Source of the DNA: an uncultured Arenimonas sp.
GTDB lineage: Bacteria > Pseudomonadota > Gammaproteobacteria > Xanthomonadales > Xanthomonadaceae
DNA: 38,931 bases
Assembly (NCBI GenBank): GCA_946480565.1
Contig: CAMLKR010000008.1
Location: forward strand, 1 to 38,931
Reading direction: 5' to 3'
The notes beneath the pieces are model-generated. The model did no database searches. It was not told where the DNA came from and worked only from the letters and a program-made list of their open reading frames with translations. This document shows positions 30,229 through 35,895 of this stretch, one piece after another (position 1 is the stretch's first letter; every line of letters begins with the position of its first letter). The position numbers and the translations under genes are program-made.

Positions 30229-31133
30229 GCCACGTCACCACCCACGACTTCCCGGTGATCGGCGACACCGGGCAGCGCGATTTCAACGCCCGCGACATCG
30301 GCGTGGTGGTCGTCAGCCATGCCAGCGCCGCCACCCTCGAGGCCTGCCTGTTCCGCCTGCTGGCCGCGCGCGACGTGGCGCGGGTGGTGGTCATCGACAA
30401 CGCCTCGGGCGACGACAGTGCCGCCCGCGCCGAGCGCATGGCGACGCGCGACCCGCGCCTGACCGTGGTGCGAAATGCCGACAACCGCGGCTTCGCGGCC
30501 GCCTGCAACCAGGGCGCGACGGCGATGTCGCAGTCCTGGGTGGCCTTCGTGAACCCGGACGCCTACGTCGAGCGCGACACGCTGTCGCGCCTGGTGGCGC
30601 ATGCGCGCACGCGGCCGGGCGCCGGCCTGCTCGGCGTGGAGCTGGCGGACGAGGCCGGCGCGGTCGACCCGGCCTCGCGCCGCGCCGATCCGTCGCTGCG
30701 TGGCCAGCTGCTGGGCCTGGGCAACCGCGACGACCTTTACCTGGGCCGCGACCCGGCCCAGGTCCTGCAGGCGGTGGATGCGGTGTCGGGCGCGCTGATG
30801 CTCATGCCGCTGGGGCTGTTCGTGCGGCTGGAGGGTTTCGACGAAGGCTACCGCCTGCACGCCGAGGACCTGGACCTGTGCCGGCGCGTGCGCGCCGCGG
30901 GTTACGAGGTGGTCGTGGCCAACGACCTGCGCGTGGTGCACGTGCGCGGCGTGTCCAGCCGGCGCCGGCCGTTCTGGGTCGAATGGCAGAAACACCGCGG
31001 CCTATGGCGCTACTTCCGCAAGTTCGAGGCGGCCGACACGCCGGCCTGGCAGCGTCCGCTGCTGTGGCTGGCCGTATGGGCGCACTACGCCCTCGCCGCC
31101 CCCCGCGCCTGGTGGCGCACCCGCCAAAACTGA
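30225..31133 (+). CDS. GT2-family glycosyltransferase (rhamnosyltransferase-like), GTG start
   Basis: A 302-residue GT-A glycosyltransferase of the type found in WbbL-like rhamnosyltransferases. Motifs are DIGVVVVSHASA (24-35), VIDNASGDDS (56-65), RNADNRGFAAACNQG (83-97), NPDAY (110-114) in the DXD position, and AEDLDLCRRVR (about 208-218) for the base. A hydrophobic stretch near the C-terminus (WQRPLLWLAVWAHYALAA) may sit on the membrane. The first 22 residues precede the domain and are poorly conserved-looking. The start is GTG overlapping the methyltransferase stop. It is the last gene of the long operon; its stop codon touches the palindrome at 31133-31196. Confidence 0.87.
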   Translation: MSHVTTHDFPVIGDTGQRDFNARDIGVVVVSHASAATLEACLFRLLAARDVARVVVIDNASGDDSAARAERMATRDPRLTVVRNADNRGFAAACNQGATAMSQSWVAFVNPDAYVERDTLSRLVAHARTRPGAGLLGVELADEAGAVDPASRRADPSLRGQLLGLGNRDDLYLGRDPAQVLQAVDAVSGALMLMPLGLFVRLEGFDEGYRLHAEDLDLCRRVRAAGYEVVVANDLRVVHVRGVSSRRRPFWVEWQKHRGLWRYFRKFEAADTPAWQRPLLWLAVWAHYALAAPRAWWRTRQN

Positions 31134-31196
31134 TCCGGGGTCAGAGTGCATTTATCTTCGGTCCGGACCGAAAATAAATGCACTCTGACCCCGGAT
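31133..31196. repeat. 64-bp near-perfect palindrome (element 1), probable mobile palindromic element and bidirectional terminator
   Basis: Two 32-base arms meet with no loop (centre GGTCC/GGACC) and differ at one position. The outer part is ATCCGGGGTCAG and the inner part GTGCATTTAT. It fills the gap between two convergent genes: it begins at the last base of the GT2 stop codon and ends 6 bases from the ettA stop. A transcript would fold into a very stable hairpin, so termination in both directions is plausible. Two related elements lie at 32988-33076 and 34515-34593. The type resembles repeats mobilised by REP-associated tyrosine transposases, but no transposase is in the window. Confidence 0.88.
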
Positions 31197-31202
31197 TTAG
31201 GC

Positions 31203-32864
<1,662 letters not shown>

Positions 32865-32974
32865 TGCACGCTCTCTCTGGCGCAGGGCGCGGCCGCGCGG
32901 TGGAACGGCGGGGCCGGGCAGGGTGGGGCCGCGCGCGAAGGGCGTGCAGCCGGTCCGGAATCGGAGGGTGCCCA

Positions 32975-32980
32975 AGTATA
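32975..32980 (-). promoter_or_regulatory. Putative -10 box (TATACT) for ettA
   Basis: TATACT on the minus strand is the best -10 match in the region and would give a leader of about 105 bases. The -35 region (about 32997-33003) falls inside the left arm of palindromic element 2, which contributes CTGACC. Confidence 0.5.
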
Positions 32981-32987
32981 CCGGGTC

Positions 32988-33076
32988 AAATCCGGGGTCA
33001 GAGTCGATTTATCTCTGGCGACCAAGGCCCCGGGGGGCCGGCATCCGGAAGATAAATCGACTCTGACCCCGGATTT
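32988..33076. repeat. 89-bp inverted repeat (element 2)
   Basis: Perfect 27-base arms (32988-33014 and 33050-33076) enclose 35 bases that contain their own small hairpin (GGCCCC GG GGGGCC). The arm begins AAATCCGGGGTCAGAG like element 1, then reads TCGATTTATCT where element 1 has TGCATTTATCT; the change is mirrored on the other arm. It lies between the divergent genes ettA and creD and reaches into the likely -35 region of ettA. Confidence 0.88.
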
Positions 33077-33174
33077 CTGCTGCCCGCGAAATGCCAGAGG
33101 TCCGCCTCCGGGCCGCCCGCTGCACGGGGTCTGATGCCCCTGCCGCGCTGGGCGGCGTTTTGGGGAACGGCGCC

Positions 33175-34503
33175 ATGCGCATCGGATTCAAACTGGCCCT
33201 GGTCGGCTTCCTGCTGCTGTTGCTGCTGATCCCGCTGGCCATGCTCGGCGGGCTGGTGGAGGAGCGGCAGGCGCGCGGCCAGGAGGTGGCGGCCGACATC
33301 GCCCGCTCCGCAGCCGGCCCGCAGGACCTGGTGGGCCCGCTGCTGCTGGTCGAGGCACGCAAGCTCACCGAGAGGAAGCGCGTGGTCAGCCGCGATGGCC
33401 ACCTGAGCCAGGAAACCGAGCAGGCCAGCGAAACCCTGCACTACCTGGTCAGTCCGGAAACCCTGGTCGCCGACAACCGCCTGCGCATCGAGCGCCGCGG
33501 CCGCAGCCTGTTCACGGTGCCGCTGTACCACGGCCGCATCGGACTTAAGGGCCGATTCCTGCACCGCCCGCCGCCGGCCGACGGCGCAGTGCTGCGCCCG
33601 GTGCGGGCCTGGCTGGTGCTGGGCCTGGGCGACAACCGCGGCGTGCGCGCCCTGGCCATAACGGTCGATGGCCGTCCGGTCGGCGCCGACCCCGGCACCC
33701 GCATCGCCTGGCTGCCCGAGGGCCTCAGCGCGCCGGTGCCGCTGGCCGCGCTCGACCGCCCGCTGGACTTCGACGTTGCCCTGGACCTCACCGGCACCGG
33801 CCACCTGGGCTGGCTGCCGGTGGGCGCCGAGACCACGGTCACGGCCAGTGCGCCTTGGCCGCACCCGGCCTTCGAGGGCCGGCACCTGCCGGAAACCCCG
33901 GCCGTGGACGCCAGCGGCTTCAGCGCCCGCTGGGCCGTGTCGCGGCTGTCGAGCCGGGTGCAGCAGGTGCTGGCGGGCTGCCCGCCGACCGACAGCGACT
34001 GCCCGGGCCTGGCCGAGGGCCGCTTCAGCGTGCGCCTGGTCGATGCGGTAGACCGCTACCTGATGACCGACCGCGCCATCAAATACGCCCTGCTGTTCCT
34101 GGCCCTGGTGTTCGGCGCGGTCTTCCTGGTCGAGGCCCTGGCCGCGCGGCCGGTGCACTTCGTCCAGTACGGCCTGACCGGCCTGGCCATGGCCATGTTC
34201 TACCTGCTGCTGCTGTCGCTGTCCGAGCACATCGGCTTCGGCCCGGCCTATGCCATCGCCGCCGCGGCCTGCAGCGCCCTGATCGGCCACTACCTGGCCG
34301 CGGTGCTGGGCGGCGGGAGGCGCGGGCTGGCCTTCGGGCTGGGCCTGGCCACGCTGTACGGCCTGCTCTACGTGCTGCTGCGTTCGGAAGACCACGCCCT
34401 GCTGGTCGGCGCCGGCGCGCTGTTCGCGGCCCTGGCCGCGGTGATGGCCCTGACGCGGCGGGTGGACTGGAACCGCCTGGGCGGCGGGACGGGTCCCGGG
34501 TAA
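33175..34503 (+). CDS. creD: CreD family inner-membrane protein
   Basis: A 442-residue membrane protein. One membrane segment at about 5-25 is followed by a large periplasmic domain (about 30-300) and four to five C-terminal segments (from about 303). The N-terminal segment with LLLLLLIPLAMLGGLVEER followed by the R-x-x-A-x-x-(D/E)-I-A-R-S-like stretch, and the C-terminal VFLVEALAARPVHFVQYGLTGLAM, are family hallmarks. CreD is controlled by CreBC in E. coli and linked to envelope integrity and beta-lactam response (CreD/BlrD) in other gammaproteobacteria; its molecular job is unknown. The ATG at 33175 follows GGGGAA; an upstream ATG at 33091 adds 28 residues before the membrane segment. No creB or creC is nearby. 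It is bracketed by elements 2 and 3. Confidence 0.92.
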   Translation: MRIGFKLALVGFLLLLLLIPLAMLGGLVEERQARGQEVAADIARSAAGPQDLVGPLLLVEARKLTERKRVVSRDGHLSQETEQASETLHYLVSPETLVADNRLRIERRGRSLFTVPLYHGRIGLKGRFLHRPPPADGAVLRPVRAWLVLGLGDNRGVRALAITVDGRPVGADPGTRIAWLPEGLSAPVPLAALDRPLDFDVALDLTGTGHLGWLPVGAETTVTASAPWPHPAFEGRHLPETPAVDASGFSARWAVSRLSSRVQQVLAGCPPTDSDCPGLAEGRFSVRLVDAVDRYLMTDRAIKYALLFLALVFGAVFLVEALAARPVHFVQYGLTGLAMAMFYLLLLSLSEHIGFGPAYAIAAAACSALIGHYLAAVLGGGRRGLAFGLGLATLYGLLYVLLRSEDHALLVGAGALFAALAAVMALTRRVDWNRLGGGTGPG

Positions 34504-34514
34504 GCCGCGAAAAG

Positions 34515-34593
34515 GGGGGCAGGTTCACTTTCCCCGAGCCGGGGTCCGGGCAGTCACGGTGGGCCTTTGCCCGGGGAAAGTGAACCTGACCCC
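34515..34593. repeat. 79-bp inverted repeat (element 3)
   Basis: Arms of 22 bases (34515-34536 and 34572-34593, one mismatch) enclose 35 bases, the same interior length as element 2. The right arm read in reverse gives GGGGTCAGGTTCACTTTCC: the outer GGGGTCAG is shared with elements 1 and 2, while the inner part is different. It begins 11 bases after the creD stop and ends 11 bases before the likely -10 box of glyA. Confidence 0.85.
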
Positions 34594-34604
34594 GGTTCCG
34601 GGGC

Positions 34605-34610
34605 TACAAT
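34605..34610 (+). promoter_or_regulatory. Putative -10 box (TACAAT) for glyA-nrdR-ribD
   Basis: GCTACAAT lies 34 bases before the glyA ATG. The -35 region (about 34582-34588) falls inside the right arm of element 3, where the sequence is GAACCTG. Confidence 0.5.
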
Positions 34611-34644
34611 TTCGGGCCCCACGCCGCCCAGGAAACCCGCGCCG

Positions 34645-35895
34645 ATGTTCGCCAAGGATATGCAGATTGCCGGTTACGACGACGTCCTGGCCCAGGCCAT
34701 GGCGCACGAGCGCCAGCGCCAGGAAGACCACGTCGAACTGATCGCCTCGGAGAACTACGCCAGCCCGCGCGTGCTCGAAGCCCAGGGCAGCGTGCTGACC
34801 AACAAATACGCCGAGGGTTACCCCGGCAAGCGTTATTACGGCGGCTGCGAATTCGTCGACGTGGCCGAGAAGCTGGCCATCGAGCGCGTGAAGCAGCTGT
34901 TCGGCGCCCACTACGCCAACGTGCAGCCGCACTCGGGTTCGCAGGCCAATGCCGCCGTCTACCTGGCCCTGCTGCAGCCGGGCGACACCATCCTGGGCAT
35001 GTCGCTGGCCCACGGCGGCCACCTGACCCACGGCGCCAAGGTCAACTTCAGCGGCAAGCTCTTCAACGCCGTGCAGTACGGCGTGAACGAAGCCGGCCTG
35101 ATCGACTACGACGAAGTGCAGCGCCTGGCCACCGAGCACAAGCCGAAGATGCTCATCGCCGGCTTCAGCGCCTATTCGCAGGTGATCGACTGGGAGCGCA
35201 TGGCGAAGATCGCGCAGTCGGTCGGGGCCTACTTCTTCGTGGACATGGCCCACGTGGCCGGCCTGGTCGCCGCCGGCGTGTATCCGAACCCGGTGCCCTA
35301 CGCCGACGTCGTCACCTCGACCACGCACAAGACCCTGCGCGGCCCGCGCGGCGGCATCATCCTGGCGCGCGCCAACGAGGAGCTGGAGAAGAAGTTCCAG
35401 TCGCTGGTCTTCCCCGGCACCCAGGGCGGCCCCCTGATGCACGTGATCGCCGCCAAGGCGGTCGCGTTCAAGGAAGCGCTGGAGCCGGCTTTCACCGACT
35501 ACCAGAAGCAGGTCGTGAAAAACGCCCAGGCCATGGCCAAGACGATGATGTCGCGCGGCTACAAGATCGTCTCGGGCGGCACGGAAAACCACCTGATGCT
35601 GATCGACCTGATCGGCCGCGACGTGACCGGCAAGGACGCCGAGGCCGCGCTCGGCGCCGCCCACATCACCGTCAACAAGAACGCCGTGCCCGGCGACCCG
35701 CGTTCGCCCTTCGTCACCTCGGGCCTGCGCATCGGCACCCCGGCCGTCACCACCCGCGGCTACAAGGAGCCGGAGTGCGTGGCGCTGGCGAACTGGATCT
35801 GCGACGTGCTCGACGCCCCCACAGACGAGAACGTGATCGCCGGCGTGCGCGACAACGTCACCAAGCAGTGCCGCGCGTTCCCGGTGTACGGATAA
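34645..35895 (+). CDS. glyA: Serine hydroxymethyltransferase
   Basis: A 416-residue PLP enzyme that interconverts serine and glycine while charging tetrahydrofolate with a one-carbon unit. The PLP lysine is K229 in [14 protein letters not shown], at the same number as in E. coli GlyA. Other family segments are [13 protein letters not shown] (29-41), [11 protein letters not shown] and [15 protein letters not shown]. The ATG at 34645 gives the normal N-terminus MFAKDMQI; an open frame back to 34567 lies in the repeat element and promoter. nrdR follows after 9 bases, an arrangement common in this family. One-carbon units from here feed purine synthesis (purL is in the same window but not linked). 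Confidence 0.98.

Follow-up and report, generated by a model that had tools for sequence, protein, structure and literature searches.

Three long inverted repeats of an uncultured Arenimonas and their probable relation to the terminal repeats of TIRYT transposases

In the accessible part of Di Nocera 2013 (PMC3733652), the names TIRYT and TIRtron were introduced together with a GGGGWSAS motif and families of terminal inverted repeats (TIRs), two of which match two TIRYT genes in S. maltophilia K279a; intragenic repetitive extragenic palindromes (REPs) of the GTAG and CGTC types were also reported, many of them in replication, repair and RNA helicase genes. As far as its accessible text goes, Quentin 2018 (PMC6006769) assigns most TIRYTs (20 of the 26 published) to TnpA-Y1 subclass 2.1, equates that subclass with group 1 of Bertels' REP-associated tyrosine transposases (RAYTs) and describes no REP-like sequences near subclass 2.1 genes. 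The available text of Bertels & Rainey 2011 (PMC3116915) states that REPIN spacers are conserved both in length and in their pairing and that compensatory changes are common, and that of Nunvar 2013 (PMC3686654) describes REP classes that switch with the RAYT, depend for their abundance on the matching transposase and become orphans after its loss. In a 2021 study of TnpAREP recognition (PMC8266576), again in its accessible part, transposase groups are said to have co-evolved with their REPs. Here we analysed three long inverted repeats, E1, E2 and E3, in a 38,931-base stretch of contig CAMLKR010000008.1 from an uncultured Arenimonas sp. (the window), which are very probably non-autonomous REPIN-like palindromes built from the TIRs of TIRYTs, that is, of RAYT-type Y1 transposases.

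As in the accessible account of TIRtrons (PMC3733652), we found a Y1 transposase with long TIRs, an outer string (GGGGTCAG) that fits GGGGWSAS and solitary TIR families in some genomes, whereas here the inner module of the arms tracks the protein over 53 loci, homologous slots were compared and a fixed-length class lies partly in frame. REPINs and their RAYTs, in the accessible part of PMC3116915, share with our elements the invariant 16-mer ends and a pairing spacer kept in length (GI spacing 71 bp), and the REPIN-like features (inverted pair, invariant ends, near-constant length, pairing spacer) are all found in the long class of palindromes in relatives; unlike REPINs, our elements lack a GTAG tag and their arms are TIRs of another RAYT class. 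The systems of Nunvar 2013 and PMC8266576 are, in the text accessible, likewise GTAG REPs, whereas ours are TIRs. With subclass 2.1, as far as PMC6006769 could be consulted, the transposases have the NHVH, W[EQ], YIELNP and SS motifs in common; in contrast to that account, multi-copy palindromes here match the transposase arms. Intragenic REPs and Rickettsia palindromic elements resemble our elements as palindromes read through inside genes, but the intragenic repeats in the accessible part of PMC3733652 are GTAG- or CGTC-tagged REPs rather than TIRs, the CGTC repeats having no known transposase. TIR families, compensatory changes in REPINs and intragenic REPs are already published. A literature search with most subscription papers outside its reach found no TIR arm-transposase covariation, slot comparison or in-frame long TIR class; a search with the arm string gave nothing useful among the papers listed, and searches on in-frame palindromes and HrpA had no title on intragenic TIRs among those listed.

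Three palindromes and a transposase between similar arms

The original prediction of three long inverted repeats was borne out by an inverted-repeat scan of the window (perfect arms of at least 13 nt, spacer below 120 nt), in which E1, E2 and E3 were all recovered where predicted as three of the four repeats that passed, and by RNA folding of both strands against 200 shuffles (z about -13 for E1, about -9 for E2, and about -5 and -4 for E3, with 1 of 200 shuffles folding equally well on the minus strand of E3). E1 (31133..31196; subtype GGGGTCAG-AGTGCATTTATC, 56 nt from GGGG to CCCC) consists of a left arm (31133..31164, plus strand; GGGGTCAG at 31137-31144) and a right arm (31165..31196, minus strand; CTGACCCC at 31185-31192), each 32 nt, 97% complementary and without a spacer. 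E2 (32988..33076; subtype GGGGTCAG-AGTCGATTTATC, 77 nt from GGGG to CCCC, long class) has fully (100%) complementary 27-nt arms (32988..33014, plus; 33050..33076, minus) around a 35-nt spacer. The palindrome E3 (34514..34593; subtype GTTCACTTTCC) has perfect 17-nt core arms (34520..34536, plus; 34572..34588, minus), which extend at 84% complementarity to 34503-34539 and 34569-34605. A common outer module had been proposed for all three, and this holds for both arms of E1 and E2, which carry GGGGTCAG and with it the GGGGWSAS motif, and for the right arm of E3; the left outer module of E3 is degenerate and reads GGGGGGCAG. The GC-to-CG difference between E1 (GTGCATTT) and E2 (GTCGATTT) was indeed seen on both arms, whereas its reading as a compensated mutation of one element was not upheld, E1 and E2 being different subtypes. 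A GTAG-type tetranucleotide was absent from the arm ends of E1-E3, and in relatives the flank columns read AAATCC or AAAACA where such a tag would stand.

A TIRYT gene was not identified in the window, and the genome-wide counts below refer to relatives of its organism. The predicted tie to a REP-associated tyrosine (Y1/HuH) transposase found support in Arenimonas terrae, where an open frame of 293 codons that encodes a Y1_Tnp domain (locus L008) lies between the arms GGGGTCAGAGTGCATTTATCTT and GGGGTCAGAGTGTATTTATCTT, which match E1 within one base, GGGGTCAGAGTGCATTTATCTT being identical to an arm of E1. A PDB sequence search with this transposase gave no match; the best PDB match of its predicted structure (mean predicted local distance difference test score 90) was 4ER8 (E 2e-8), in which the E. 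coli REP transposase is in complex with a REP hairpin. We then compared 91 TIRYT loci of Lysobacteraceae (30 from the homologue search, a further 60 fetched, and L011), mostly of full length, broken or short copies being under-represented. Flanking inverted repeats exceeded all 50 shuffles at 74 of the 91, the G-rich outer motif was present in both arms at 54, and exact GGGGTCAG in both arms at 33. NHVH and W[EQ]G were found in 26/26 proteins checked and the Y motif (YI[ED]LNP) in 24/26 by the pattern used; S140 and S141 of the SS motif are invariant. At two loci (G074 L181 and G127 L183) each repeat beside the Y1 gene is a whole GGGGTCAG palindrome, a layout like that of one S. maltophilia TIR family in the accessible part of Di Nocera 2013 (PMC3733652).

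Arm type, transposase lineage and distribution in relatives

In relatives, the inner module (positions 9-18 counted from GGGG) goes with the TIRYT lineage. Its distance correlated with TIRYT protein distance (rho 0.54, n = 53 loci with L076 excluded, permutation maximum 0.20, 0/2000), also within the exact-GGGGTCAG subset (rho 0.545, n = 32, permutation maximum 0.29), and the correlation was weaker for the outer module (rho 0.32, permutation maximum 0.30). On a likelihood tree, the distribution of eight TIR classes is explained by 14 changes (mean 33.4 after shuffling, 0/200 as low), and the GTTCAC and GTC classes each form a single clade (support 100/100). The proposal of a fixed outer and an exchangeable inner part stands for the inner module, which tracks the transposase; the outer module as the invariant part had to be rejected because GGGGACGG, GGGGCCAG and GGTGTCAG replace it at other TIRYTs. 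Palindromes also resemble the arms of the TIRYT in their own genome: among the listed palindromes of 18 genomes, 16 of which have a resolved TIRYT, the distance was 0.212 to own-genome arms vs 0.456 to those of other genomes (0/20000 permutations as low), own-genome arms being closer in 13/16. Since the inner module follows the TIRYT and palindromes resemble the arms of their own TIRYT, we read E1, E2 and E3 as copies of three TIR subtypes; E1 would correspond to the arms of the A. terrae TIRYT and E3 to those of the GTTCAC TIRYT clade, and a TIRYT with the arms of E2 was not found among the 91 loci read.

Further copies were found in relatives, as had been anticipated. Exact GGGGTCAG(20-50)CTGACCCC palindromes numbered 18 in A. 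terrae, 3 in A. daejeonensis, 15 in ULC165bin1 and 0 in A. donghaensis, against none for the reversed control pattern in all four genomes, and spacers of 49-79 added 17 in A. terrae. In 27 genomes of the same genus, 173 palindromes had spacers of 18-48 and 96 had spacers of 49-79. Across 198 Lysobacteraceae genomes, themselves a selection from a larger group (spacers 18-48), palindromes were present in 49 (418 in total vs 7 control matches) and a homologue of the A. terrae transposase (E <= 1e-20) in 73. Both were found in 33 genomes, the transposase only in 40, the palindrome only in 16 and neither in 109, so that palindromes occur in 33/73 genomes with and 16/125 without the transposase (odds ratio 5.6, p = 9e-7, uncorrected for relatedness). 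The Y1 genes of G101, G166 and G182, which have 21-28 palindromes each and no homologue at this threshold, are mostly flanked by REP-like repeats and not by GGGGTCAG arms.

Slots without the element were found as well, as predicted: at most homologous sites in relatives, a TIR palindrome is missing or belongs to another subtype. At the equivalent place of E1, A. terrae (L004) has an E1-subtype palindrome, and its equivalent of E2 has arms identical over at least 25 bp with a different interior. Other TIR-type palindromes occupy the E1 slot in 2/11 genomes, and the E2 slot holds other subtypes in 6/18 (one GGGGTCAG, four ACCAGG/ACCGGG and one short; the TIRYT locus L092 is flanked by ACCAGGTTCATTTTC arms), while the E3 slot, examined in 6 relatives, had no TIR-type palindrome in any of them. 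For six element sites of A. terrae, 69 homologous sequences from 12 genomes were compared, five of them lacking the right-hand anchor; TIR-type palindromes were present in 9 (one uncertain), only one of which was of the A. terrae subtype, GTAG-type REP doublets in another set of 9/69, and none or short hairpins in the remainder. In an informal comparison with genome-wide copy numbers, slot reuse looks high.

Several observations weigh against a TIRYT origin. Flanking repeats above all shuffles were missing at 17/91 TIRYT loci, and Pfam did not show a C-terminal helix-turn-helix, a feature reported for subclass 2.1 (the A. terrae model has C-terminal helices at 167-179, 185-196 and 203-212). 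Sixteen TIRYT-negative genomes carry palindromes, three of them 21-28 copies, and 40/73 TIRYT-positive genomes have none of the exact pattern. Class AGTSS is unclustered on the tree (5 changes, shuffled 5.8), and the palindromes of G012, G032 and G072 do not match the resident TIRYT. Aligned slots gave no target-site duplication and no exact junction; they give presence and absence with no movement observed, and movement, recognition and any host role are inferred. The missing target-site duplication also argues against an alternative explanation, namely that the elements, with their similar arm-loop-arm layout, are miniature inverted-repeat transposable elements of an ordinary DDE transposase with TIRs; since it is a Y1 transposase gene that lies between arms of this kind (no search was made for DDE genes), we consider this extremely improbable. 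Under the preferred TIRYT reading, the transposase would recognise the folded single strand via its type-specific arm and would move the whole palindrome, and therefore both arms would arrive together in each copy and subtypes would breed true.

Some arrangements around the palindromes were seen in single genomes. In G131 (L235, L236), two palindromes are nested, one of type GGGGACGGGTGCA(A/T)T enclosing another of the GTTCAC type. In the flanks of G105 elements and at L239, L241 and L252, partial outer modules (e.g. AAAAACAGGGG) recur next to intact elements, as might result if the ends of one element served as insertion sites for another. On a contig of G002 (C2:348-7474), GGGGTCAG is spaced at multiples of 339 bases, which suggests a tandem repeat unconnected with the palindromes.

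Pairing of the arms and surroundings of the elements

Arm covariation had been predicted, and the arms do change jointly within copies. In 123 palindromes from seven genomes (only part of the copies for G105, G074, G131, G150 and G199), own-arm matching at positions 9-16 beat every partner shuffle in G105, G074, G004, G001 and G150; it was not above shuffles in G131, where these positions are nearly invariant, or in G199 (7 copies). Over positions 9-20, matched changes (138) outnumbered those on one arm (68) and those unmatched on both arms (20), with G004 and G001 restricted to one type. Much of this matching is inheritance of subtypes. Evidence for compensation at orthologous sites is thin, consisting of one matched T.A/C.G stem change between A. 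terrae and A. daejeonensis along with one unmatched difference. E1 and its A. terrae counterpart were rejected as proof of compensation because the paired change is the central loop dinucleotide and is accompanied by one unmatched base.

The listed copies with spacers of 49-79, of which 56/75 measure 71-77 nt (mode 74; 65-95 allowed), form the long class, which has invariant outer arms, about six copy-specific complementary pairs and an unpaired interior. Of 52 chosen elements, the 26 of its GTTCACT type show almost no variation at positions 9-16; at positions 17-22, the two arms of a copy match at 0.96-0.65 vs 0.32-0.51 with the arms of other copies, and pairing beyond position 22 is near chance. 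At positions 17-20 of G131, own-arm matching reached 0.87 (shuffled mean 0.30, shuffled maximum 0.53). This copy-specific pairing beside the interior suggests either that a stem of ~22 bp is under selection or that one arm is repaired from the other. The matched arms could stem from template switching or fold-back repair within the palindrome rather than from selection or copying at transposition, and copy-specific yet complementary positions, in the GTTCACT type as in G131, are what such repair would leave. As a general explanation it appears unlikely to us: 68 one-arm differences persist, unmatched differences are seen in orthologous copies too, and the link with the TIRYT lineage is left unexplained. 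A 640-kb G202 contig has 25 perfect copies of the 16-nt arm, none with a single mismatch and one with two; three and four mismatches give 10 and 40 matches vs 4 and 39 in one shuffle. With such uniform arms and varied interiors, ageing alone is hard to accept as an explanation.

The window neighbours of the elements are a glycosyltransferase gene, a gene for an ABC-F protein with two ABC_tran domains, which we take to be EttA-like, creD (a CreD search returned seven loci, the closest from Arenimonas) and glyA. E1 lies between the convergent 3' ends of the glycosyltransferase and ABC-F genes, E2 in the intergenic space upstream of both the ABC-F gene and creD, and E3 between creD and glyA; by a third-position test, none of them is in frame inside a gene. 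Rfam gave no match to the window, and no tRNA genes were found in it. The position of E1 between convergent stop codons would fit hairpins kept mainly as bidirectional terminators or mRNA 3'-end structures, mobility being old or incidental and the matched changes ordinary compensatory mutations. Consistent with this, an A. terrae open frame ends at 26/36 arm sides vs 80/360 random flank positions, 16/18 A. terrae elements have at least one such gene end, and the matched T.A to C.G change falls in an orthologous element. We nevertheless regard this account as rather improbable. A simple scan of 30900-34800 (stem plus T-run, loops 3-8) called 0 terminator-like sites, and hence none at E1-E3; the arm sequence goes with the lineage of the transposase, a link that a terminator would not require; the G202 arm recurs exactly 25 times in 640 kb and never with one mismatch; 10/20 G105 elements lack such a gene end; and ten elements lie inside genes. 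With the elements taken as TIRYT-derived, hairpins adjoining stop codons may still serve as 3' RNA structures.

The long class and copies inside genes

Interiors can be inherited, as two identical G105 elements and several G074 elements with common interiors show. Best interior similarity within a genome was above shuffles in G202 (0.26 vs 0.04), less so in G001, G106, G199, G214 and G131, and not in G150, part of the excess being due to pairing ends included in the cut. Three readings of the interiors were tried and rejected. As remnants of empty slots, none of 14 comparisons stood out (300 shuffles, lowest 36/300 as good); as self-folding units, they had a mean z of -0.28 (n = 52); and as sequences captured from elsewhere, 15 long G202 elements had no second full-length copy in 794 kb (about a quarter of the genome), one 29-nt match at 93% being part of a terminator-like hairpin and the others usually 12-18 nt long, the longest reaching 25 nt at 88%. 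In two G202 elements (C14:591029-591109 and C24:34316-34380), the arms enclose an interior that is itself a terminator-like hairpin (AAAAGGGCCCGC...GCGGGCCCTTTT and similar).

Open frames through long-element interiors averaged 2.85 of 6 vs 2.39 after shuffling (standard deviation 0.13, n = 52). Among 30 elements tested for read-through (20 fetched long ones, 7 from G202 and the 3 of the window), 10 were in frame and had flanks with coding-like third positions to either side, by a simple third-position rule on crude gene calls, and the three of the window were not among them. The host genes identified encode HrpA, with two cases in G202, and a presumably DinG-like helicase that carries a Helicase_C_2 domain. 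One G202 HrpA gene (P0001) holds two in-frame long-class palindromes, at C14:341793-341882 and 342899-342984 (L342:1793-1882 and 2899-2984). In 121 HrpA proteins (the query and the best 120 of 7,997 matches), two length-variable positions were present in 118, of which 17 and 12, respectively, had arm-peptide motifs at these positions by simple patterns, other Lysobacteraceae HrpA proteins having different arm-type peptides at the same two positions. HrpA P0115, P0080, P0067 and P0079 have sequences such as VIPAKAGIH...SRLRGND and LKKGGRGDL there, which we assume to resemble products of other palindromic repeat families. A further-reaching model, which we consider quite unlikely as a whole, is that in each move of the long class only the 16-nt type-specific arms would be inherited, while the next 6 bp and the ~30-nt interior would be renewed at near-constant length (mode 74 nt). 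Because some frames stay open through the arms, in-frame loops of ~23-43 residues might thereby be added by a RAYT group 1 transposase to conserved proteins like HrpA, the same gene positions being reused with different arm types across species.

The TIRYT reading connects multi-copy repeats with a little-studied transposase class and yields a specificity code that can be read, in which transposase lineage is set against ~10 nt of arm; recognition by RAYT group 1 proteins thereby becomes testable. The in-frame copies suggest that the repeats add peptides to helicases at reused positions.

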